Assembly: GCA_913061075.1 (NCBI GenBank)
Contig: CAJXSK010000009.1
Span: 1-64,000 of the forward strand
Source of the DNA: an uncultured Piscirickettsiaceae bacterium
GTDB taxonomy: Bacteria > Pseudomonadota > Gammaproteobacteria > Methylococcales > Cycloclasticaceae
Length of the DNA: 64,000 bases
Direction: 5' to 3'
The position numbers were made by a program, and so were the translations under genes. Position 1 is the first letter of the stretch. The number at the start of each line of letters is the position of its first letter. Of this stretch, positions 16,072-28,903 are shown one piece after another. The notes beneath the pieces were generated by a model. It was not told where the DNA came from. It saw only the letters and a list, made by a program, of their open reading frames with translations, and did no database searches.

Positions 16072-16845
16072 TTGAACGCTAATCCATTCCCCTATGTTTC
16101 ATCACCAAACGATTCTATTTGTAATGCCATACAAGCGTTAATTGAAAACGATACGTTTGAATTAAGTGATACGAATGCCGGCTTATGTAGTTATCTTTTT
16201 TTTGATGAAAATGCTCTCACGTACTCCTTGCGGGCTGACAATCAAACGTTAACACTCTCGCATAGTTTTACATCTGGTAAGAACAAACATAGGCAGCAAT
16301 ACGGCGGTGGTAAAAACCAACCATTACCAAAGGCTTGTGGCTTAGATAAACACCCAAACTGGACTATATTTGATGCAACAGCAGGTATAGGTAGGGATGC
16401 TTATGTACTAGCTAGCTTAGGTGCACAAGTAACGTTGTGTGAACAACACCCGGTTTTATATGCGCTATTAGTTGATGCATTGAATAGGGCGGCTTTGGAC
16501 GAAGAAGTTAAGGCTGTTGTTCAGCGAATCCAAATAATTCACGGTAATTCGTCGGACGTGTTAAATGCTATGCCAGAGACTACAGTAAAACGCCCTGATG
16601 TTATCTATTTAGACCCGATGTATCCTGACCGTAAAAAAAGCGCAAAAATCAAAAAAGACATGCAAATTCTTCAGTACTTGGTTGGTCATAACACACAAGA
16701 CGGTTTGTTATTTGAAACTGCTTATGCAACAGCAATCAACCGTGTTGTCGTAAAACGCCCAAAGACGGCGAAATCTATTACATCAATCAAACCAAGCTAT
16801 AACGTTAGTAGTGAAAACACACGTTATGACGTGTACGTTTTATAA
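16072..16845 (+). CDS. rsmJ: 16S rRNA (guanine1516-N2)-methyltransferase
   Basis: This SAM-dependent methyltransferase modifies G1516 of 16S rRNA in the 30S subunit. The 257-residue protein contains the SAM-binding motif FDATAGIGRDAYVLASLGA and the acidic loop CEQHPVLYALLVDAL. It also has the family catalytic stretch VIYLDPMYPDRKKSAKIKKD, followed by the conserved VVVKRPKTA. The start used is TTG at 16072; no ATG occurs in frame upstream within the open stretch, so a non-AUG start is needed or the start is slightly different. No convincing ribosome binding site is seen. Confidence 0.9.
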   Translation: MNANPFPYVSSPNDSICNAIQALIENDTFELSDTNAGLCSYLFFDENALTYSLRADNQTLTLSHSFTSGKNKHRQQYGGGKNQPLPKACGLDKHPNWTIFDATAGIGRDAYVLASLGAQVTLCEQHPVLYALLVDALNRAALDEEVKAVVQRIQIIHGNSSDVLNAMPETTVKRPDVIYLDPMYPDRKKSAKIKKDMQILQYLVGHNTQDGLLFETAYATAINRVVVKRPKTAKSITSIKPSYNVSSENTRYDVYVL

Positions 16846-16943
16846 AGATATCTATCTAAAACTGCTCATTATGTGATGTAAGTAAATACAGCAAATTTTC
16901 GAATATTGCCTACACTTACATACTCATTAATTAAAGAAAGTAA

Positions 16944-19900
16944 ATGAGTTCATGTTTGATTCATTTACATTCTATATTGTGCTTTTTTTATAAAAATAAT
17001 AACGCCTTTGGGATGCTTGTGAATAAATTATTTCGTATTTTGGTTATTTTGTTGTTGCCTGTTAATGCAATGGCGGCTCTTACAACCGCTGTAACGCTTG
17101 TTACAGGCCAACCAGGAAGTATTCTTCCCGGAGAACAAACGCAAATTGAAATTACGTTAGGGAATAGTAATACGGGTTCAACCATAACAGGGCTCGCATT
17201 CAACTCGCCACTTCCAGCTGGCTTTCCAGACGGTCTAGAAATCGCAGGTGCAGCAACTTATCAATGTACAGATTATGTTGATCCCCCTGGCCCGGCAACA
17301 GGCCCCACAACAACACCTGGCGTGGGTACGTTAACGGCGACTATTGGTGGGCAATTAATCAGTTTGACTGGCGGGGTAATTCCAGCAAGAGCAAGCAACA
17401 CAGACGGCTCTTGTACAATAATTATTCCTGTTACTGCGGGTACCTCTACAGGTAATAATGCGACGTATACGTACGACATTGCGAATAATGCTGTTACAGG
17501 TAATGACGGTGCGGCTGTTGCTAATGTGGGCGCTGTAAGCCAAAGCATCAATGTATTAGCATTTAACCAACCTGTTATTAGCAAAGGTTTTTCAGCATCA
17601 ACAGTGACGCTTGGTGGAAACGCATCAACATTGACATTCAGCGTGACAAATACGAACAGTGTTGCAATTCCTAACTTCAGTATGACAGATGCATTTCCGC
17701 AACTAGGTGGCAGTGCCATTATTGAGGTGGCAAATCCTGCTAATGCAACGAGTAATTGTACCAGCGGGACACCGTCATTCACGCCCGTAGTTGGTGCGGA
17801 TACTGTCGTGGCGACGGGCGATATTCCGGCCAATGGTAGCTGTACCTTTACTGTTGATGTTATTGCTTCACACACAAACGGTGGATACACAACAGGGGCA
17901 CAAACAAATAGAATTACAAGCGGCGGTGATTTCACCAATGATTTAGGTATTCCGGCTGCAGGAGACGCAACGAGTAATATTACGGTGCGATCATCATTAA
18001 GTGTTTCAAAAGCGTTTAATAATAGTGTGTTATCTAGCGGGCAGTCTGATACGTTTACCATTACATTAAATAATGACTCAAATAGCGCTCTAACGATCAC
18101 AACGTTCGATGATAATCCTATTGACGGAACGGCGGGTATTGGTGGGGGAGCAGGTGTATTAGGTTCTGGCCTTGTCGCAACAGGTGTTGCAAGTACCTGC
18201 GCCGGAGCTGTAGGTTCGCTATTAAATGCAGGCGATGGTATTCGAATAACAGGTGGTGTCATACCAGCTAACAATTCTTGTACGGTAACCGTTAACTTTA
18301 CAGCGGCTGCACAAGTAACACAGGTTCCTATAACGTATACCAATACTATTGCCGAAGACGCCGTTAATGTAACAACACCAAATGTAGTGAGCCAAACGCG
18401 TTCTGCAACAGTATTAGTAGCAGATGAGTTACGGGTGCTTAAAACGGCGAATCCATCTATTGCAGCACCTGGCAATCCAGTTAATTATGTTATTACTGTC
18501 CAGAATTTCTCTAACAGTGTTATAAATGCGGTAACTATTAATGATGTTCTACCGGTAGGGTTCACTTATCTAACAGGCGTTATTGCTGGTAATGATTTTA
18601 ATCCGACATTAACAGCAGCTTGCGGCGTGTTAACAGAAACAAGTGTGTTAGGTGACGTGGCAGCACAATTTTCTGTAGCGACACTACCTGCCAGGACAGC
18701 TATTGGTTCTCCCGGGGCATGTGATATCAGCTTTTGGGCAATGTTAGACCCTCTTGCTGCTGATGGTGTGGCAACAGCTAATACCATTGATGCAGGACAG
18801 GTTTGTTATAACGCCGGTACAACGTGTAATGGTTCAGGTGTTAGTTCAGGTACTACGACTGCGGAAACAACCGTTTTTTCAGCAACCAAACGTTTTAATA
18901 ACACGTCAAGTACGGTCACCTTACCTGAAGGAACCATTGCAACGCTTAGTGTTACGTTAACTAATATTTCAGCGAACCCGTTAACAAATGTAACGTTATC
19001 AGATACGTTCCCAAGCGATGGTTTAGGTCAATTACAAGTCGCAACGCCGGCGAATGCTTCTACTACATGTGGTGGAACAGTAACAGCCGTGGCTGGTACT
19101 ACCTCACTAGCCTTAACTGGAGGAACCGTTCCAGCGAGAGCGGCAAACGGAACAGGGGCAAATGGTACGTGCGTTATTAATGTTGATGTTATTGGCCCTG
19201 CGGGAACATTTGATAATGTTGCCCAACTAGCAGGTACGCAAACCTTTGCTAATGGCGGCACTGGCAATATTACGCAATTCGATACTAATACGGCGCGTCT
19301 TGTTTACTTATCTTCATTGTTGGCAAATAAAAGTTTCAACCCAACAGCTGTTTCATCTGGTGGTACATCGCGTGTGTCGATTAGGCTATCTAATTCAGGG
19401 GCAGTGGCGTTAACAAATGTGTCTGTAACTGACCCATTACCGGCGGGGATGGTTTTAGCAAACCCCGTTAATGCGGCCTCAACTTGTGCAGGGTCACCTG
19501 TATTTACGTCTGCGGTTGTTGGCGCAAGTTCCATTACAATGCAGGGTGCTAGTATTGCGGGTCTGGGCTCTTGTGATGTTCTCTTTGATGTGGTCGCAAC
19601 GGGTGCAGGAGATTGGATAAACACCATTCCTGTAGGAAATATTACGGCTGATGGTGGCATTATTAATACGACTGCTGTGACAGATACACTGTTATTTCAG
19701 CCCGGCACGGGGATTAGCGTTGGTAAAACATCCAACCCAAGCACGCTTAGTTTTCCAGGAGAAACAAGCCAGCTAACCATTACGTTTACTAATGGCACGA
19801 ATGCCGTTACTAACATGGCGGTCACAGATTATTTTACAGTCGATGGAACTGTTGGAGGCGCATTAAATGGGATGGTTGTTGCGGTAACCCCTAATGCATC

Positions 19901-22670
19901 AACCACTTGTACAGGCGGCACAGTAACAGCTGTTTCTGGGGGCACACAAGTTGCCTTATCAAATGTTTCATTAGCAGCTAGCCAAGCATGTACGGTAACG
20001 GTCGATGTGTCATCTACTAGTATTGGCGGTATTACTAATTTTATCCCTATTGGTTCGATCACGTCTGATCAAGGATCTACAAATGCAGGCCAAGCAACAA
20101 CTAGTTTAACGGTACAAAGTAATTTGGGTGTTGTGAAAGAATTCACGCCCAAAACTATTCTTCCTGGTGAACGGTCTAGATTACGCATTACATTTTTAAA
20201 TCCAACAAATGTAGCCATTGGTGATTTATCTGTCATAGATACAATGCCGGCAGGCGTCACCATACCAAGTGGTGCCAATCCAATAACAACTTGCTTAGGT
20301 GGCGTCGTGTCATCTCCAGCAGCAGACCAAGTACAAGTTGTTAGTGCTAATTTACCAGCAGCGTCTGGTGGCGTATCGACCTCTTGTTATGCTGAAATTG
20401 ATGTGACTTCTGCTGCTCAAGGGGATTACGTCAATACCATTCCCGTGGGTGCGGTAACGGGTGTAGCAGGCGGCTCAACGATTAGCAATTCACAACCGAC
20501 GAGCGACACGTTATCGGTTAAAACACCATTAACGATTCATAAGGCATTTGATAACAATACATTGGATGCAGGTAACCCCGTTGGTTTGACAACGGGCACA
20601 TCGACGGTTAGCCCAGGTGCGTCTTCAACGTTAACGATAAGAATGGACAACCCTAATGCACAGGCACTAACGGGTGTAGCGTTTATAGATGATTTGCCTG
20701 CAAATTTAGTGATTGCACAAACACCAAATGCTAGCACAACGTGTGCAGGTGGTTTTGTAGATGCATTAGCTTCAGCAACCAGCGTGCGTTTGTCTGGTGC
20801 GACTGTGCCTGCCAGTGGGTTTTGTACAGTGTCTGTTGATGTTTTAAGTAATATTTCTGGTAACTATGTTAATTCAATAGCGCCTAACGCGGTCACATCA
20901 AACGAAGGTGTCTCTAACGAAGAAGGAACGAGTGCCGAGTTATTAGTATCAACGCCACCGAGTGTCGATAAACAGTTTGCACCGGCGGTTATTGCTTCAG
21001 GTGGTATTTCTACGTTGACGATTGTGTTCGATAATCAGAATGCAACGGATATTACGTTAACAAGTTCTTTTGTTGATACTCTACCAACATCACCTGGGGC
21101 GATTGTTGTTGCTGGTACACCTAATGTCGTAAAAACATGTCCGGGTGCAGTAACGGCTGCAGCGGGAAGTGGGTCAGTTACCTATGCAAATGGGGCTGTT
21201 ATACCAGCAGGTGGTTGTACTATTAGTGTTGATGTATCGGGCACTGTTGCAGGAGAGCATGTTAACAATATTCCTGCAGGAGACCTACAAACAACAGTTG
21301 GTAATAACCAAACACCTGCGAATACGAGTTTAATCATTAGCCCATTGGGATTTGTCTCTGGGCAGGTATTTACAGACAATAATTTAGTACCAAATGGCGT
21401 TTTTGATAGTGGTACTGATACGCCGTTATCAGGTGTGTCAATTGAGCTTCGTGCAGGCGCAACTTGTGCAGCGCCATTGGCTGTTATTGCTGGGGTAACA
21501 AACCCAACAACAACAGATGGGTTAGGAAATTACTTATTCGCTAACTTACCAGCCGGTACGTACTCTGTATGTGAGCCAGTACAGCCAACTAATACGGCAA
21601 ATGGTACGACAACAGCAGGTGCTATTTCAACAAGTAATGGTAGCTCGGGTACTGCTGGTACAGCAACAAACCCCACTGTAACGAGTAGTGAAATAGAAAA
21701 CATTATTCTAAACGGTGATGGAGCAAGTGGCGAAGTGAGTGGTAGTGCAAACAATACGTTTGCAGAAATTGCACCTTCATCCATTTCTGGTGTTGTATTT
21801 TTAGATCAAAACAATAATGGAGTTCAAAATGGTGCTGATACGCCATTAGTTGGTGAAACCATTGAACTGTTAGACAACTTAGGTGCTGTAATCACATCGG
21901 TCGTTACTGATGCTAATGGAGCCTATAGTTTTACCGGACTTGGGCCAGGTACCTATTCAATTAGGCAACCTAATCAGCCTGCTAGTACCTCTAATGGTCA
22001 AACATTAGCTGGTGTAGTAGCAAACGCTGGAACCGATGGTACAGCTACTAACATAGCAACATTGCCTAGCCAGATATCAACCATTATTTTGCCACCTAAT
22101 ACATCGGTAACGGCGAATAATTTTGCTGAAATTCCGCAGACCAGAAGAATATCAGGCTCTATCTTTTTAGATTATGACAGTGATGGTATAGAAAATAATT
22201 CAGACCATGGCATTGGTGGGCAAACAGTTAATTTAACGGGGACAGACATTAATGGTAACCCGGTTAATTTAGTAGTAGTTACAGCTAATGATGGTTCTTA
22301 TGTTTTTGATGGATTGCCAGAAGGAACGTATACGGTTACACAACCTATTCAACCTGTCGGCACAACAAACGGGATAACGACTGTAGGGAGCACTGGAGGT
22401 ACAGCAACAGCTATTGGTGTAACACCTAGTGCTATATCTGTTATAGATTTAACGGGTGCAAATACGGTATCTGGCGCTAATAATTTTGCTGAATTACCGG
22501 GGGCCGCTGTTGATTTAGCTATTACTAAAACGCATAGCCCAGCCAGTTTTGGTGCAGGGTCAAACACAGGGTTTTACACCATTACACCAAGCAATATTGG
22601 TACGTTAGATTCATCTGGAACGATAACGATTGTTGATACATTACCTGCAGGAATGACAGCATTTGCTTAG
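16944..22670 (+). CDS. Giant DUF11/SdrD-B repeat surface protein, N-terminal part (ends at in-frame TAG)
   Basis: The 1908 residues begin with a signal peptide (RILVILLLPVNAMA-A). ATG 17013 is an alternative start that removes 23 residues. Next come about nine DUF11-type beta-sandwich units of 130-150 residues, opening at roughly residues 210, 350, 495, 645, 790, 925, 1060, 1195 and 1340 with phrases such as VVKEFTPKTILPGERSRL. Most units have two cysteines. Three SdrD-B-like units follow near 1470, 1615 and 1735 (ISGVVFLDQNNNGVQNG). A further DUF11 unit at about 1860 is cut by TAG at 22668-22670. The same frame stays open to 24719, so the intact gene would encode about 2590 residues. It probably forms an extracellular fibre or adhesin, but the substrate is unknown. 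Confidence 0.8.
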   Translation: MSSCLIHLHSILCFFYKNNNAFGMLVNKLFRILVILLLPVNAMAALTTAVTLVTGQPGSILPGEQTQIEITLGNSNTGSTITGLAFNSPLPAGFPDGLEIAGAATYQCTDYVDPPGPATGPTTTPGVGTLTATIGGQLISLTGGVIPARASNTDGSCTIIIPVTAGTSTGNNATYTYDIANNAVTGNDGAAVANVGAVSQSINVLAFNQPVISKGFSASTVTLGGNASTLTFSVTNTNSVAIPNFSMTDAFPQLGGSAIIEVANPANATSNCTSGTPSFTPVVGADTVVATGDIPANGSCTFTVDVIASHTNGGYTTGAQTNRITSGGDFTNDLGIPAAGDATSNITVRSSLSVSKAFNNSVLSSGQSDTFTITLNNDSNSALTITTFDDNPIDGTAGIGGGAGVLGSGLVATGVASTCAGAVGSLLNAGDGIRITGGVIPANNSCTVTVNFTAAAQVTQVPITYTNTIAEDAVNVTTPNVVSQTRSATVLVADELRVLKTANPSIAAPGNPVNYVITVQNFSNSVINAVTINDVLPVGFTYLTGVIAGNDFNPTLTAACGVLTETSVLGDVAAQFSVATLPARTAIGSPGACDISFWAMLDPLAADGVATANTIDAGQVCYNAGTTCNGSGVSSGTTTAETTVFSATKRFNNTSSTVTLPEGTIATLSVTLTNISANPLTNVTLSDTFPSDGLGQLQVATPANASTTCGGTVTAVAGTTSLALTGGTVPARAANGTGANGTCVINVDVIGPAGTFDNVAQLAGTQTFANGGTGNITQFDTNTARLVYLSSLLANKSFNPTAVSSGGTSRVSIRLSNSGAVALTNVSVTDPLPAGMVLANPVNAASTCAGSPVFTSAVVGASSITMQGASIAGLGSCDVLFDVVATGAGDWINTIPVGNITADGGIINTTAVTDTLLFQPGTGISVGKTSNPSTLSFPGETSQLTITFTNGTNAVTNMAVTDYFTVDGTVGGALNGMVVAVTPNASTTCTGGTVTAVSGGTQVALSNVSLAASQACTVTVDVSSTSIGGITNFIPIGSITSDQGSTNAGQATTSLTVQSNLGVVKEFTPKTILPGERSRLRITFLNPTNVAIGDLSVIDTMPAGVTIPSGANPITTCLGGVVSSPAADQVQVVSANLPAASGGVSTSCYAEIDVTSAAQGDYVNTIPVGAVTGVAGGSTISNSQPTSDTLSVKTPLTIHKAFDNNTLDAGNPVGLTTGTSTVSPGASSTLTIRMDNPNAQALTGVAFIDDLPANLVIAQTPNASTTCAGGFVDALASATSVRLSGATVPASGFCTVSVDVLSNISGNYVNSIAPNAVTSNEGVSNEEGTSAELLVSTPPSVDKQFAPAVIASGGISTLTIVFDNQNATDITLTSSFVDTLPTSPGAIVVAGTPNVVKTCPGAVTAAAGSGSVTYANGAVIPAGGCTISVDVSGTVAGEHVNNIPAGDLQTTVGNNQTPANTSLIISPLGFVSGQVFTDNNLVPNGVFDSGTDTPLSGVSIELRAGATCAAPLAVIAGVTNPTTTDGLGNYLFANLPAGTYSVCEPVQPTNTANGTTTAGAISTSNGSSGTAGTATNPTVTSSEIENIILNGDGASGEVSGSANNTFAEIAPSSISGVVFLDQNNNGVQNGADTPLVGETIELLDNLGAVITSVVTDANGAYSFTGLGPGTYSIRQPNQPASTSNGQTLAGVVANAGTDGTATNIATLPSQISTIILPPNTSVTANNFAEIPQTRRISGSIFLDYDSDGIENNSDHGIGGQTVNLTGTDINGNPVNLVVVTANDGSYVFDGLPEGTYTVTQPIQPVGTTNGITTVGSTGGTATAIGVTPSAISVIDLTGANTVSGANNFAELPGAAVDLAITKTHSPASFGAGSNTGFYTITPSNIGTLDSSGTITIVDTLPAGMTAFA
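22668..22670 (+). other. In-frame TAG inside the giant repeat gene
   Basis: The codons read GCA TTT GCT TAG CCA ACA. Translation continues without frame change as PTTGDWICSVAGQIVTC, which completes the DUF11 unit interrupted here. So a single nonsense codon, not a frameshift, divides the gene. Confidence 0.9.
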
Positions 22671-22769
22671 CCAACAACAGGTGATTGGATTTGTTCTGTA
22701 GCAGGGCAAATAGTTACTTGTAACAGTAGTGCGGTTATAACTGCAGGCGGTGTAGGAAGCGATATTTTA

Positions 22770-24719
22770 TTGCAAGTAGCTGTAGCAGCAGGAACTGAAG
22801 GACAAATTCTAACAAATAATGTCGTTATATCGGGCGGCAATGAACCACCAGGGTTTGATGGTAACAATGATGATAGTGACAGCGTTTCAATTGCAGCAGC
22901 GGCGGCAGTTGAAGGCACTGTTTGGATAGACGCCAATCATGACAGAGTTCTAGACGGTTCTGAACAGCTAGTGCCGGGTTGGGTCGTTGAGCTGGTCTTA
23001 AATGGTAATACGGTTGCCTCTACATTAACAGACAGCAATGGGGACTACTCATTTACTGGCTTAGCACCAGGTTCAGGTTATCAAATACGATTCACAGAAC
23101 CAACAAGTGGCGCTGTGTTAGGGCAACCATTGCCGAATGAAACAGGTGGCGCTTCAACGAGTGGTGTAACGGACCCTGTAAATAACCCAGCCGGTGCAGA
23201 ATATGTGGACGGTACATTAAACAACCTTACATTACTAGCTGGTACAACAACGTCTAATCAAAGTTTGCCGCTTGACCCATCTGGTGTCATTTATGACTCA
23301 GTGACACGTAACCCTGTCGCTGGTGCGACGGTAACGCTCGTGAGTGGGGGTGTTCCGGTACCCAATATTTGTTTAGTTGGGGCAAATAACAACCAAGTAG
23401 TTGGTGCGTTAGGCATATATCAATTCTTATTGGTAAACCCAGCCCCTGTTGGATGCCCCGGCGATGCGGTTTATTTATTAGAAGTAGTGCAACCAAGTGG
23501 TTATTTGCCACCGGCTTCAACAATTATTCCTGAAACAGCGGGTGGTCCATATACGCCAGTTGGTGGAATAGATGCAATTCAACCACAAGCAACACCACCA
23601 ACAGGTGGGCAGGCGACTACTTATTACTTTGATTTTAACTTAACGTTAGGTGGGTCAGGCGTCATCAACAATCATATTCCGATTGACCCCATTCTAGAAG
23701 GTGCATTATTAGTCACTAAAACAACGCCAAAGAAAAATGTTGTACGAGGTGATTTGATTCCTTATACGGTCACAGCGACAAATACATTAACAGCAACGTT
23801 AACGAACTTATCGCTTCAAGATCAAATACCTGCTGGCTTTAAATACATATCCGGTTCATCTTCTTTAAATGGTACGGCGCTAGAGCCAATTGTTGCCGGC
23901 CGTTTATTAAGTTGGAGTGGTTTAACCTTTTTAGCGGGTGAAACAAAAACCATTCAACTTATATTGATTGTTGGTTCGGGTGTGAGTGAAGGCGAATATG
24001 TAAACCAAGCTTGGGCTAATAATGATATCGCTAATGCTAGAGTGTCGAATGTGGCGTCTGCAACAGTGAGAGTTGTTCCTGATCCATTATTCGACTGTTC
24101 TGACCTCATCGGTAAAGTGTTTGATGATGAAAATATCAACGGTTATCAAGATAACAATGAAAAAGGCATTGCTGGGGTTAGATTAGCAACTGTTAGAGGC
24201 TTGTTAGTGACGACAGATAATTATGGGCGATTCCATGTTGCCTGTGCCGATGTGCCTAATGAATTACATGGTTCAAACTTTATTATGAAGCTAGATGAAC
24301 GAACATTACCATCTGGCTACCGTGTAACAACTGAAAACCCACGTGTTGTTCGGTTAACACGCGGCAAAATCACTAAGTTGAATTTCGGTGCAGGCATTCA
24401 TCGTGTGGTACGAGTCGACATCAACAACCTAAGCTTTGATAAAGAGGGAGAAACATTAAGAGTCAATTCAATTTCTCAAATAGATGAGCTTGTTGACATA
24501 CTTAAAGAAAAACCTTCATTAGTCCGATTGGCTTATTTTGAAGGCAAAGGTGAACCTAAGGCAGATGTTGAAGAGAAAATGAAACTATTTATTGATGAAT
24601 TAACCTCGAGATGGCAGTCATGTGATTGTTCATTTTATGAGCTAACAGTAGAACAAGAAATAGTGCCTCAGGCGTTTGGAAAAACCAGCTTAAATAGCCT
24701 AGTAGGAGATAAAAAATGA
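22770..24719 (+). CDS. Giant repeat surface protein, C-terminal part (downstream of the in-frame TAG)
   Basis: This piece is in the same frame as 16944-22670 and continues it; the coding sense resumes directly after the TAG at 22671. The start at 22770 is only the first usable start codon and has no clear ribosome binding site. Contents in order: rest of a DUF11 unit, an SdrD-B-like unit (VEGTVWIDANHDRVLDGSE), a further variable unit (SGVIYDSVTRNPVAGATV) and a DUF11 unit (LLVTKTTPKKNVVRGDLIPY). Then come a carboxypeptidase-regulatory-like unit (IGKVFDDENINGYQDNNE) and a C-terminal stretch (ISQIDELVDILKEKPSLVRL) resembling a degenerate OmpA-like peptidoglycan-binding domain. Its stop overlaps the start of the next gene by four bases (ATGA). 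Confidence 0.75.
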   Translation: MQVAVAAGTEGQILTNNVVISGGNEPPGFDGNNDDSDSVSIAAAAAVEGTVWIDANHDRVLDGSEQLVPGWVVELVLNGNTVASTLTDSNGDYSFTGLAPGSGYQIRFTEPTSGAVLGQPLPNETGGASTSGVTDPVNNPAGAEYVDGTLNNLTLLAGTTTSNQSLPLDPSGVIYDSVTRNPVAGATVTLVSGGVPVPNICLVGANNNQVVGALGIYQFLLVNPAPVGCPGDAVYLLEVVQPSGYLPPASTIIPETAGGPYTPVGGIDAIQPQATPPTGGQATTYYFDFNLTLGGSGVINNHIPIDPILEGALLVTKTTPKKNVVRGDLIPYTVTATNTLTATLTNLSLQDQIPAGFKYISGSSSLNGTALEPIVAGRLLSWSGLTFLAGETKTIQLILIVGSGVSEGEYVNQAWANNDIANARVSNVASATVRVVPDPLFDCSDLIGKVFDDENINGYQDNNEKGIAGVRLATVRGLLVTTDNYGRFHVACADVPNELHGSNFIMKLDERTLPSGYRVTTENPRVVRLTRGKITKLNFGAGIHRVVRVDINNLSFDKEGETLRVNSISQIDELVDILKEKPSLVRLAYFEGKGEPKADVEEKMKLFIDELTSRWQSCDCSFYELTVEQEIVPQAFGKTSLNSLVGDKK

Positions 24720-27700
24720 AATATTTAATCCCTACATTATTTAGCGTCCTTCTTTCATTTACAGCGCTTGCGTCAGATAAAGAAAAGTCTTGTCCAGTAA
24801 ACGAAAAAGGTGAAGACAAATTCTGCGAACATAAAGAATGGCGTGAAGAAGCAACGCTTTCAGACGATGGTTCCATTAGAACGGTTTCAATCCCTGAAAA
24901 CGCAGAGCGTCAGTTAATTAAGCAGAAAGTGACGCTATGGTCTTTACCAATAGATAATACATCACACTATACCCACGATGATTTAGAACAGGTAAAAGTG
25001 GATGTTTCTTCTACACATTTTGCATCAGCCAGTGCGACGATTGAATTATCTAAAGTAAAGCGAGTAGATGAGCTTCTTAAGCAACTTAAAGGTAAAAACT
25101 CACTTAAACTGGAAGTCATTGGTCATACCGATAGTCAGCCATTATCATTAAAGGCGCAACGTTGGTTTAACAATAATCAAGCGTTATCTCAAGCACGAGC
25201 AAAAGCGGTCGCTAACTATTTGCAAAAACAGCTTAACTTGTCTAACGCGTCCATTATTATTAAAGGTAAAGGAAGCAAAGAACCCATAGCGAGTAATGCT
25301 ACCCCTTCTGGGATGGCTAAGAACAGGCGTGTAGAAATTTTAGTGTCGTATGAGAACGTTGTTAAATCTCATCAAATCGCATTTCAACAGATCATGAGCC
25401 ATCAACATGTTTGCCAGGGTGAAATGTTATCTAAGCAATCAGATAAGGGTTTCAATATACGTATTGATGGTGAATCGAATGCAGGTTTGGTAGAAGATAA
25501 TGAAGATGAACAACGCTGTATAGACAAAAAATTATCAGTAGCCGACATACGGCTTCAATATGATAACTTAGCCGCCGCGCCTTTGCTAAATGCATCTGCT
25601 TGGCCTGCAACGTTTGTTAATAATGAAACGGTTAAATTTAACGCTTACAGTAATTATTTAGCATGGGTTGAACGTGCGGAAATACGTATTTTTAAAGCAG
25701 CTGATTCTGACAATGGTAAGCCGTTACACGTTATTAAATTGGATAACAACTTATCCGCTGATTGGGGCGTTAAATCACAATCGCCAGAAGCATTGAAATA
25801 CCGGTTGCGTGTATATGATAAAAAAGGGAGGTTCGATGAAACAACCAGCCTACCCTTATGGCGAGTCGCTAAAAGAAAATCACTCGATGATGAACAGCTG
25901 TCTGCCAAAGAAAGCGCGTTTATAGCGTACGGTAAAACACGGTTAGAGAAACACAATATTCCAGTGCAAGGTGGAAGTGTGACAGTCAGCGGGCGACGTG
26001 TGCCTGGTGATGAAAGCGTATTTTTTATGGGACGCTCGATACCTGTCGATTCAAAAGGAAACTTCGTTGCACGTCAAATAGTCCCTAATGGGCGACATAC
26101 TATTGAAGTAGTGACCTTGGATTCAAAACGTAGCGGAACGTTATATTGGCGCAATATTGAGTTCAAATCCGATGATTGGTTTTATGTGGCTATTGCTGAT
26201 ATTACGGCCGGTAGATACAAGGCTAATAATAATGCAGTCGTCGTGACTAAAGATAAACAGCACTTAGCTGACAATAGTTTTATAGATGGACGTTTAGCGT
26301 TTTATACAAAAGGTAAGTGGCGTAATAAATACACTGTCACAGCCAGTGCAGATACAAGAGAGCAGCCGCTAGAAGATCTTTTTTCAACCTTTATGGATAA
26401 AGACCCAAGAAGTTTATTACGCCGTTTAAATGATAAAGACTATTACCCTGTATACGGTGATGACAGCACGCTAGTTGAAGATGCGCCAACACAAGGAAAG
26501 TTTTACGCAAAAATTGAAGATGCACGTTCAAGTGCTATGTGGGGAAATTTCAAAATTGTTCAACAAGAAACTGATTTAGCGCAAATTAACCGAGGCTTGT
26601 ATGGGGCCGTTGTTGATTGGAACAGTGAATCATTCAATAGCCGAAGCGAAAGCATAACGAAAGTTAATGTATTTGCTGCAGAACCTGGCACACAGGCCGC
26701 TAGGGAAGAGTTCCGTGGAACAGGTGGCTCGTTGTATTACCTAGGTCATCAAGACATAGTGAATGGCTCAGAACGCGTACAGGTTGAAGTGAGAGACAAA
26801 GATTCTGGCATTGTTTTAAACGTTAATTCGTTAGTAGCAGGGCAGGATTACCAAGAAGACGCTATTCAAGGAAGAATACTATTGACCCGTGCATTACCCT
26901 CAACAGCCGATGATAGTCAGTTAGTGCGTGCGGGAAGTTATTCTGGTCACCCTGTGTTTTTGGTTGTTAACTATGAATACGTCGGCAATTTAACCAACTT
27001 TGACGAGTTAGCGGTAGGTGGAAGAGCATCGCATTGGTTAAATGATTCAGTTCGTTTAGGCATAACGGGTTCACACCAACAACGTGATCAACAAGACCAA
27101 AACTTAACAGGGTTAGATGTTCTGTTCCGTAAAACGGCAGAAACCTATTTAAAATTAGAAGCAGCTAGAACAGAAGGGCCAGGTGTCAGTTCCAATGGTT
27201 CAATTGATGGCGGCTTCAGCTTTTCTTCAACAGGTGTTAACCCATCTAACAACCAAGGCGCTAATGCATTCCAACTAGAAAGTGGGTTTGTGTTTAATGA
27301 CTTTGCAATGGATATGGATGGCAAAGGTCATGTTTATTTACGGCGTAGAGAAAAGAACTTCACCGCACCTGGCCAACAAACAAGCTTTGATACGAACCAG
27401 TTTGGTGGTGGCATTAACGTACCATTAAGTGATAAAAATAGCGTTAGTTTGAAAGTGGACTTAACTGATCAAAAAGGCGGTGTTGATCAAGAGATTGCAG
27501 AAGCAAATGTGCATCATAAGCTAAATGAAGACTGGAGAATTAGTGCCGGTGTTCGAGGTGACAGCCGTCAAGACAATACAGGCACACCGTCGAATAACAA
27601 TGACGGTGATCGCGTAGATTTAACACTTCAAGCAGATTATGGCATTGATGAAGAGTGGGGCGCGTTTGGTTTTGTACAAGGGTCATTATTAACCAATGGT

Positions 27701-28834
27701 GATAGAGACAAAAACAACCGACTTGGTTTAGGTGGGCATTTTCAAGCAAATGATCGTTTAGGTCTTAACGGTGAAGTGTCATCTGGCACAGGCGGTTTTG
27801 GTGCATTGATTGGTGCGGACTATAGATTATCAGACCGTACAACGACCTATTTAAATTATGCACTGGACCCAGACAATGCAAACAGTGGCATTGGTAACAG
27901 GCAAGGTAAATTGGTGTCTGGCCTTCGTACACGCTACTCAGACTCTATTAGTGTGTATGGTGAAGAACAATTACTACACGGCGAAAGCAATGAAGGCTTA
28001 ACCCATGCCTATGGTGTTGACTTAATTGCAAATGAGCAGTGGAACTTTGGTCTTGCCGTAGAAAGTGGGCATATCACAAACAAAAACAGTAAATTGCGTA
28101 GGCGGGCAGCTAGCTTCTCTGCAAACTATAAATTTGAAGATGTTAAATACGGCGGTAACCTTGAATACAGGCGAGATAACATTGATGGCGACGTCCGTAA
28201 TAATTGGTTAACACGTAATAACTTTGCTTATATGGTCAATGAAGATTGGAGAATGCGCTTTCAATTAGACTTAGCCTTAAGTGATAACAGTAATGATGAC
28301 TTCTTTGATGCCGATTACGCTGAATTAATTTGGGGATATGCGTATAGACCTATTGATAACGATGAGTTGAATTTACTGGTTGAATACAAATACCTTGCCG
28401 ATCAATCACCGTCGGATCAATTTACGGCCAGTGAGCAACAAAACGAATTTGAACAACGTAGCCATGTGTTTTCTGTTGATGCGACGTACGACTTAAACCC
28501 GCGTTGGGCAATAGGCGGTAAATACGCAACGCGTATTGGAGAACTAAGAGCAGGAAGGGGCACAGGTGAATGGTTTAGAAGCCAAGCTCAACTAGGTGTA
28601 GTACGCCTAGACTGGCATGTGGTTAGACATTGGGATGCGCTTATTGAAGCTCGTGTCTTAGATATTGATGAAGCTGAAGATAGACGAGCAGGCTTTCTTG
28701 CTGCTATATACAGACACTTCGGAGATCACCTGAAAGTGGGTGTGGGTTACAACTTCACGGATTTTTCAGACGACCTAACAGACCTTGATTACGACAGTAA
28801 AGGTGTTTTCTTTAATGTGGTAGGCAAGTGGTAA
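24716..28834 (+). CDS. OmpA-domain outer-membrane beta-barrel protein
   Basis: The 1372-residue protein has a signal peptide (IPTLFSVLLSFTALAS). Residues 90-215 are an OmpA-like domain with VIGHTDSQP, LSQARAKAVANYL and NRRVEILV, expected to bind peptidoglycan. Residues of about 270-500 look like Ig-like beta domains. After about residue 500 the sequence alternates polar and hydrophobic residues with many GN, D and aromatic positions. It ends in VFFNVVGKW, with a terminal aromatic as in outer-membrane barrels. Stretches such as YYPVYGDDSTL and FRGTGGSLYYL recur in large OmpA-family barrels I have seen next to DUF11 proteins. The ATGA overlap indicates coupling to the giant repeat gene. I infer that it anchors or exports that protein. 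Confidence 0.78.
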   Translation: MKYLIPTLFSVLLSFTALASDKEKSCPVNEKGEDKFCEHKEWREEATLSDDGSIRTVSIPENAERQLIKQKVTLWSLPIDNTSHYTHDDLEQVKVDVSSTHFASASATIELSKVKRVDELLKQLKGKNSLKLEVIGHTDSQPLSLKAQRWFNNNQALSQARAKAVANYLQKQLNLSNASIIIKGKGSKEPIASNATPSGMAKNRRVEILVSYENVVKSHQIAFQQIMSHQHVCQGEMLSKQSDKGFNIRIDGESNAGLVEDNEDEQRCIDKKLSVADIRLQYDNLAAAPLLNASAWPATFVNNETVKFNAYSNYLAWVERAEIRIFKAADSDNGKPLHVIKLDNNLSADWGVKSQSPEALKYRLRVYDKKGRFDETTSLPLWRVAKRKSLDDEQLSAKESAFIAYGKTRLEKHNIPVQGGSVTVSGRRVPGDESVFFMGRSIPVDSKGNFVARQIVPNGRHTIEVVTLDSKRSGTLYWRNIEFKSDDWFYVAIADITAGRYKANNNAVVVTKDKQHLADNSFIDGRLAFYTKGKWRNKYTVTASADTREQPLEDLFSTFMDKDPRSLLRRLNDKDYYPVYGDDSTLVEDAPTQGKFYAKIEDARSSAMWGNFKIVQQETDLAQINRGLYGAVVDWNSESFNSRSESITKVNVFAAEPGTQAAREEFRGTGGSLYYLGHQDIVNGSERVQVEVRDKDSGIVLNVNSLVAGQDYQEDAIQGRILLTRALPSTADDSQLVRAGSYSGHPVFLVVNYEYVGNLTNFDELAVGGRASHWLNDSVRLGITGSHQQRDQQDQNLTGLDVLFRKTAETYLKLEAARTEGPGVSSNGSIDGGFSFSSTGVNPSNNQGANAFQLESGFVFNDFAMDMDGKGHVYLRRREKNFTAPGQQTSFDTNQFGGGINVPLSDKNSVSLKVDLTDQKGGVDQEIAEANVHHKLNEDWRISAGVRGDSRQDNTGTPSNNNDGDRVDLTLQADYGIDEEWGAFGFVQGSLLTNGDRDKNNRLGLGGHFQANDRLGLNGEVSSGTGGFGALIGADYRLSDRTTTYLNYALDPDNANSGIGNRQGKLVSGLRTRYSDSISVYGEEQLLHGESNEGLTHAYGVDLIANEQWNFGLAVESGHITNKNSKLRRRAASFSANYKFEDVKYGGNLEYRRDNIDGDVRNNWLTRNNFAYMVNEDWRMRFQLDLALSDNSNDDFFDADYAELIWGYAYRPIDNDELNLLVEYKYLADQSPSDQFTASEQQNEFEQRSHVFSVDATYDLNPRWAIGGKYATRIGELRAGRGTGEWFRSQAQLGVVRLDWHVVRHWDALIEARVLDIDEAEDRRAGFLAAIYRHFGDHLKVGVGYNFTDFSDDLTDLDYDSKGVFFNVVGKW

Positions 28835-28867
28835 AAAATGTAAATAATTGAATTATTAAATAAAAAA

Positions 28868-28894
28868 GGCCTTATCAATGATAAGGCCTTTTTT
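28868..28894 (+). terminator. Terminator after the OmpA-barrel gene
   Basis: GGCCTTATC (28868-28876), loop AAT, GATAAGGCC and then T6: a strong intrinsic terminator just downstream of the stop at 28834. The A-tract on the other side also lets it end the minus-strand tRNA-Leu transcript. Confidence 0.9.
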
Positions 28895-28903
28895 ATTGTG
28901 ATT

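Follow-up and report, generated by a model that had tools for sequence, protein, structure and literature searches.

The window analyzed here, the 64,000-nucleotide stretch of DNA shown above, belongs to a marine oil-degrading bacterium with a genome of 2.26 Mb (G000), in which it is contig 9; the matched congener is an uncultured Cycloclasticus. It contains two plus-strand genes, overlapping by ATGA at 24716-24719, that encode a giant repeat protein and a protein with a predicted outer-membrane beta-barrel; we refer to them as the giant and the barrel protein. Sequence comparisons indicate that the two, each of which carries a predicted export signal, belong together. On balance, we favor the view that they constitute one functional unit, a "rod + barrel" system for display at the outer membrane that is either split over two overlapping genes or fused into a single polypeptide. 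We hold this view because of the linkage of the genes, a C-terminal module that is common to the giants, natural fusions, the correlated divergence of the partners, and an OmpA domain that can sit on either partner.

A profile of the barrel protein was used to search 398 evenly drawn Pseudomonadota genomes and matched 57 of them, ~22 at full length; a full-length barrel protein is present in ~6% of the sampled Pseudomonadota, and a barrel protein or a fused cousin in ~14%. The set of testable loci came from these survey genomes, plasmid records (Eleftheria, Nitratireductor, Pelagibacterium, Sinorhizobium, Roseovarius, and Vibrio), the congener (G001), the window, and one contig from a viral collection. 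An earlier reading of the window, made from its sequence alone (the sequence-only reading), had coupled the giant to the barrel protein and had named homologues unlinked in most genomes as a finding that would refute this. That check was run and did not refute it: wherever a separate partner could be tested it adjoined the barrel gene (33 of 33 loci) and was a giant that shares the C-terminal module. The giant lies upstream in 32 of these loci with a gap of -4 to +68 bp, with the proviso that at L129 the start of the barrel gene is uncertain and the overlap is possibly 32 bp; the exception is G483, where the barrel gene comes first and the giant follows 45 bp downstream. DUF11 units were present in all 29 giant partners scanned. 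When the C-terminal module of the giant was used as the query instead, 32 genomes were matched, and the barrel was adjacent or fused in each of the 30 module-bearing genomes not cut by contig ends. In addition, the pairwise distances of the two partners correlate, with a Mantel r of 0.80 (to which shared species history contributes) against a maximum of 0.29 after shuffling. Judged from these comparisons, the linkage of giant and barrel is beyond chance.

The two proteins also occur as one. In a close relative (L104, from G544), the module and the barrel share a single open reading frame (ORF) of 2,079 amino acids with no second signal peptide, and a distant subfamily is fused throughout, reaching 2,417 amino acids (L056, L057, L059, L060, L114, L115, L117-L119, L121-L125, L127, and L128). 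OmpA domains lie between the module and the barrel in the fused L114, L117-L119, L122, and L125. Separate pairs carry the domain either on the barrel protein (Cycloclasticus, Eleftheria, L091-L093, and L103) or on the tail of the giant (L107-L111 and L129); many have it on neither partner, and none on both. The statement in the sequence-only reading that both partners bind peptidoglycan through OmpA-like domains is unsupported, because the domain is found on one partner or the other, never on both; the tail of the window giant, moreover, lacks the binding motifs. Conserved adjacency together with the natural fusions nevertheless bears out the coupling that it proposed. The simplest reading is that the two genes correspond to halves of one ancestral or equivalent chain that has been cut variously around the OmpA domain, and the rod-barrel junction would therefore be on the periplasmic side. 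That a single OmpA domain may reside on either partner neatly illustrates how genes can be split or fused while a domain is reassigned, and the exclusive pairing, taken with the natural fusions, makes it a testable proposition that this is a distinct type of outer-membrane display or export.

Family-level profiles and a C-terminal aromatic residue support the assignment of the C-terminus of the barrel protein as an outer-membrane beta-barrel. The window protein matches Porin_4 (E 1.6e-8), and OMP_b-brl matched the C-terminal halves of 19 of 28 homologues, with Porin_4, BBP2, DUF481, and others also found; the last residue is W in the window protein and F in most homologues. The sequence-only reading had described just such a barrel-like C-terminus ending in W, and the profile matches agree with it. 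AlphaFold models of the barrel part (1,136 amino acids, 3 sequences; pLDDT, the predicted local distance difference test score, 28) and of the giant C-terminus (244 amino acids, 3 sequences; pLDDT 43) are unusable because the alignments were too shallow, and the barrel thus rests on sequence profiles. A scan for alternating hydrophobicity was non-discriminating: hairpin-like peaks were numerous in the C-terminal part, and the controls were about as dense.

In the display system that we favor, the repeats would form a long exported rod of disulfide-prone DUF11/SdrD_B domains, the C-terminal module of which would dock onto the barrel protein from the periplasmic side. The OmpA domain, where present, would tether the complex to peptidoglycan, and the barrel may help the rod to reach and remain at the cell surface, much like a split autotransporter or an anchored adhesin; movement of the rod across the membrane through the barrel is the least certain step. 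Several points weigh against this scheme. The giant of the window genome is interrupted by a stop codon. Because OmpA domains are missing from many pairs, in which none is detectable, peptidoglycan binding appears not to be essential. The localization and export of the rod are deduced from sequence, and neither the barrel nor the docking is visible in either AlphaFold model. Finally, most rods contain 1-2 cysteines per 100 residues, paired, and such cysteine-rich rods would differ from the usual passengers, which pass through a barrel in unfolded form, and this counts against simple threading; cysteine-poor rods also occur (L051, L055, and L094-L096), and cysteine richness is thus not universal. 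Paired cysteines would imply a pore wide enough for folded domains, maintenance of a reduced state, or another route. The stronger proposal, that the barrel family is a new outer-membrane translocon for large disulfide-bearing Ig-like rods, encoded beside or fused to its substrate and with an interchangeable peptidoglycan anchor, is put forward only tentatively, as a less likely reading.

The cysteines could be accommodated if the barrel protein were an anchor only and the rod were exported by another pathway, e.g., type II secretion, which suits proteins that fold before export, as the paired cysteines suggest; the barrel also matches no known export-barrel family in Pfam. However, the comparison of gene neighborhoods found no third gene, secretion genes included, that recurs beside the pair, and a module-barrel fusion in nature better fits a self-contained unit; we thus regard a separate export route as improbable. 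Somewhat less improbable, but still unlikely, is a rod that stays in the periplasm in a structural or tethering role, anchored to the outer membrane by the barrel and to the wall by the OmpA domain. The oxidizing periplasm suits paired cysteines, and the motif-intact OmpA domain between the module and the barrel of fused relatives would place the junction in that compartment; rods of up to 4,168 residues, however, far exceed the width of the periplasm unless they lie flat, and DUF11 and SdrD_B units are known chiefly from surface proteins.

The reading frame of the window giant is not intact. As assembled, an in-frame TAG at 22668-22670, inside DUF11 unit 11, divides it into 1,908 and 682 codons. 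In the congener, the pair occurs twice and is intact each time (2,566 + 1,372 and 2,573 + 1,375 amino acids), and in both copies (L037 and L038) a sense codon occupies the position of the window TAG. Between the window and L037, the ratio of nonsynonymous to synonymous divergence (dN/dS) was ~0.05 before the stop, ~0.07 after it, and ~0.05 in the barrel gene; these ratios are only rough because dS is near saturation (dN 0.09 and dS 1.28 for the part of the giant after the stop). On these estimates, the barrel gene and the giant on both sides of the TAG are under strong purifying selection, so that the TAG would be very recent, an assembly error, or a polymorphism, and old decay would be excluded. 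The second copy of the pair in the congener (L038 7391-19239) is diverged, at ~68% identity, and lies in a different genomic context. Elsewhere, the barrel gene of G382 (L111 13386-17107) is present as two overlapping ORFs of 1,093 and 147 amino acids, a probable frameshift.

The pair is accessory. It is found in 2 of 18 genomes of the genus and, relative to the others, is an insertion of ~12 kb (window 16846-28903) between a gene that we take from its translation to be rsmJ (16072-16845) and a presumed tRNA-Leu/queA block from 28904 on, likewise named by reading translations; the rsmJ-queA interval is 12 kb in the window compared with ~0.5 kb in G009 and 1.6 kb in G005. The barrel is carried by 23 plasmid records. 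A search of an annotated phage collection found no barrel homologue; on a predicted virus contig from IMG/VR (L129 2047-12859), a tape-measure gene and other tail genes flank the pair, as if it were prophage-borne. The scarcity of the pair in the genus, the short rsmJ-queA site of relatives, and the in-frame TAG would all fit a reading of the locus in the window genome as a decaying insertion without current function, which is compatible with any function in relatives. Both genes are nonetheless intact apart from the stop and under strong purifying selection on either side of it, and the stop is possibly an assembly error or a polymorphism; we consider decay a minority explanation, and unlikely.

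The proposed display system resembles several known ones in part. Like classical autotransporters (type Va), it has a long N-terminal rod and a C-terminal barrel, in one polypeptide in L104 and the fused subfamily; it differs from them in that there are usually two genes (including the window and most loci), the rod is cysteine-rich, the barrel region is much larger (~600-850 residues), and some members have an OmpA domain in addition. The autotransporter barrel family PF03797 matched none of 9 full-length members (E up to 1) and none of 28 C-terminal halves (E up to 0.01). A giant exported protein beside a dedicated outer-membrane protein, as in all 33 testable separate loci, recalls two-partner secretion (TpsA/TpsB, type Vb), where, however, the rod is a haemagglutinin beta-helix rather than DUF11/SdrD_B and the conserved module is an N-terminal TPS domain rather than C-terminal; ShlB and POTRA_2 families were not matched by the 9 full-length barrel proteins (E up to 1) or by 30 N-terminal regions (E up to 0.1). 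SdrD_B repeat units are shared with the MSCRAMM proteins SdrC and SdrD, which are Gram-positive and sortase-anchored, whereas the partner here is a Gram-negative barrel. With the OmpA/OprF family, the barrel protein of the window has in common a peptidoglycan-binding OmpA domain, but here that domain lies ahead of a far larger barrel, and members of the barrel family can do without it.

Automatic names in the plasmid records would make the barrel a TonB-dependent nutrient receptor, with the rod as a capture device. The TonB plug and receptor families (PF07715 and PF00593) had no match in the 9 full-length members (E up to 1) or in the 28 C-terminal halves, which leaves the database name "TonB-dependent receptor" unsupported and a receptor function very improbable. 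Another name given to homologues, "OmpA family protein", is only partially correct, and together with "hypothetical protein" these names obscure a single system. The recurrence of the pair or its fusion across many Proteobacteria points to a widespread way to hold or display a long rod at the envelope, and the DUF11 giants of Gram-negative bacteria gain a candidate anchoring partner. Searches of the open-access literature turned up no account of the pair, subscription papers and preprints being outside their scope; the DUF11 text matches listed for a paper on type 11 secretion (PMC12282271) proved to be DUF1194. The component domains are known, but the system as such appears to be undescribed, as do its fusions and distribution.

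The distant fused subfamily has a further likeness, to chaperone-usher pili, in that the barrel gene follows genes for small exported proteins of the DUF11 type. At L117 4201-6744, L118 6189-10073, L119 1289-3801, and L122 7505-9949, two or three small ORFs of ~370-420 amino acids stand immediately before the fused barrel gene; they have signal-like sequences at the N-terminus and similar ends such as VTFQVTVD, and are possibly substrates or rod subunits. Homology of the barrel to ushers (PF00577) was rejected at an hhalign probability of 0.4%, using three usher sequences only, and the window genome contained no usher match.

Features of the window locus are collected in Table 1. The sequence-only reading had given the giant about 2590 codons, and a single frame of 2,591 codons (16944-24719) agrees with this, but the TAG within it had been overlooked. 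The true start, placed by comparison with L037 and L038, is likely ATG 17013 or GTG 17019, and the predicted signal peptide is then MLVNKLFRILVILLLPVNAMA. DUF11 and SdrD-B repeats had been recognized correctly: Pfam gave a DUF7933 match in 8 stretches (E 6.6e-137) as well as SdrD_B and DUF11 matches, and iterated profile searches resolved 12 DUF11/DUF7933 units and 5 SdrD_B units. Most of DUF11 units 1-10 contain a cysteine pair ~27-33 residues apart. The C-terminal module is the diagnostic part common to giant partners across loci; among distant relatives, mean column identity was 59% in the alignment around it and 49% for the barrel protein, although the sequence sets differ slightly. The degenerate OmpA-like end that had been described for the giant is real only as a weak resemblance: profile-profile comparison with OmpA gave E 1.8e-4, yet a probability of 48% over 33 columns, OprF matched weakly (E 0.4), and none of the peptidoglycan-binding motifs GHTD, LSxARA, and NRRVE was found in the window tail. 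A full OmpA domain in the giant tail is confined to other lineages, e.g., L107-L111. The ATGA overlap with a 1,372-residue partner and the OmpA-like domain of that partner (PF00691, E 9.3e-18, residues 102-204) were both as the sequence-only reading had them, and the overlap is accompanied by a Shine-Dalgarno sequence.

Table 1. Features of the giant and barrel genes in the window
Feature	Position	Strand	Remarks
Giant gene, 5' part	16944..22670	+	1,908 codons; closed by in-frame TAG
DUF11/DUF7933 units 1-10	17109..21302	+	Head to tail, ~110-130 amino acids each; profile searches
Three SdrD_B-like units	21354..22412	+	Profile searches
DUF11 unit 11	22521..22817	+	Broken by TAG 22668-22670
Remainder of giant frame	22671..24719	+	682 codons: SdrD_B unit 4, linker, DUF11 unit 12, C-terminal module, tail
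Conserved C-terminal module of giant	24081..24392	+	SdrD_B-like; FDCSDxIGKVFDDxNxNGYQD...RLTRGKxTKLNFGA
OmpA-like tail of giant	24393..24716	+	~100 residues; without GHTD, LSxARA, NRRVE motifs
Shine-Dalgarno sequence of barrel gene	24704..24708	+	AGGAG; within last codons of giant
Barrel protein gene	24716..28834	+	1,372 amino acids; predicted signal peptide MKYLIPTLFSVLLSFTALA
OmpA domain (PF00691)	25019..25327	+	GHTD, LSxARA, NRRVE motifs intact
Predicted beta-sandwich ("Ig-like") region	25448..25915	+	Between OmpA domain and core; conserved in homologue alignment
Best-conserved core	26288..26950	+	GRLAFY, YYPVYGDDST, WGNF, LYGA, TGGSLYYL, QGRILL
C-terminal outer-membrane beta-barrel region	26993..28831	+	Barrel-family profile matches; last residue W
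19-nucleotide perfect inverted repeat	28859..28897		A/T-rich ends; likely bidirectional terminator

The inverted repeat probably closes the two-gene unit, although it was absent from the output of the terminator scan. A 400-amino acid minus-strand ORF (17273-18475) lies antisense to the giant; it is probably no gene candidate but a mechanical consequence of the coding repeats. In Eleftheria terrae (L050 1164-5916), the pair is immediately preceded, on its own strand, by genes for a response regulator, a FecR-domain protein, and a CHASE2-domain protein.

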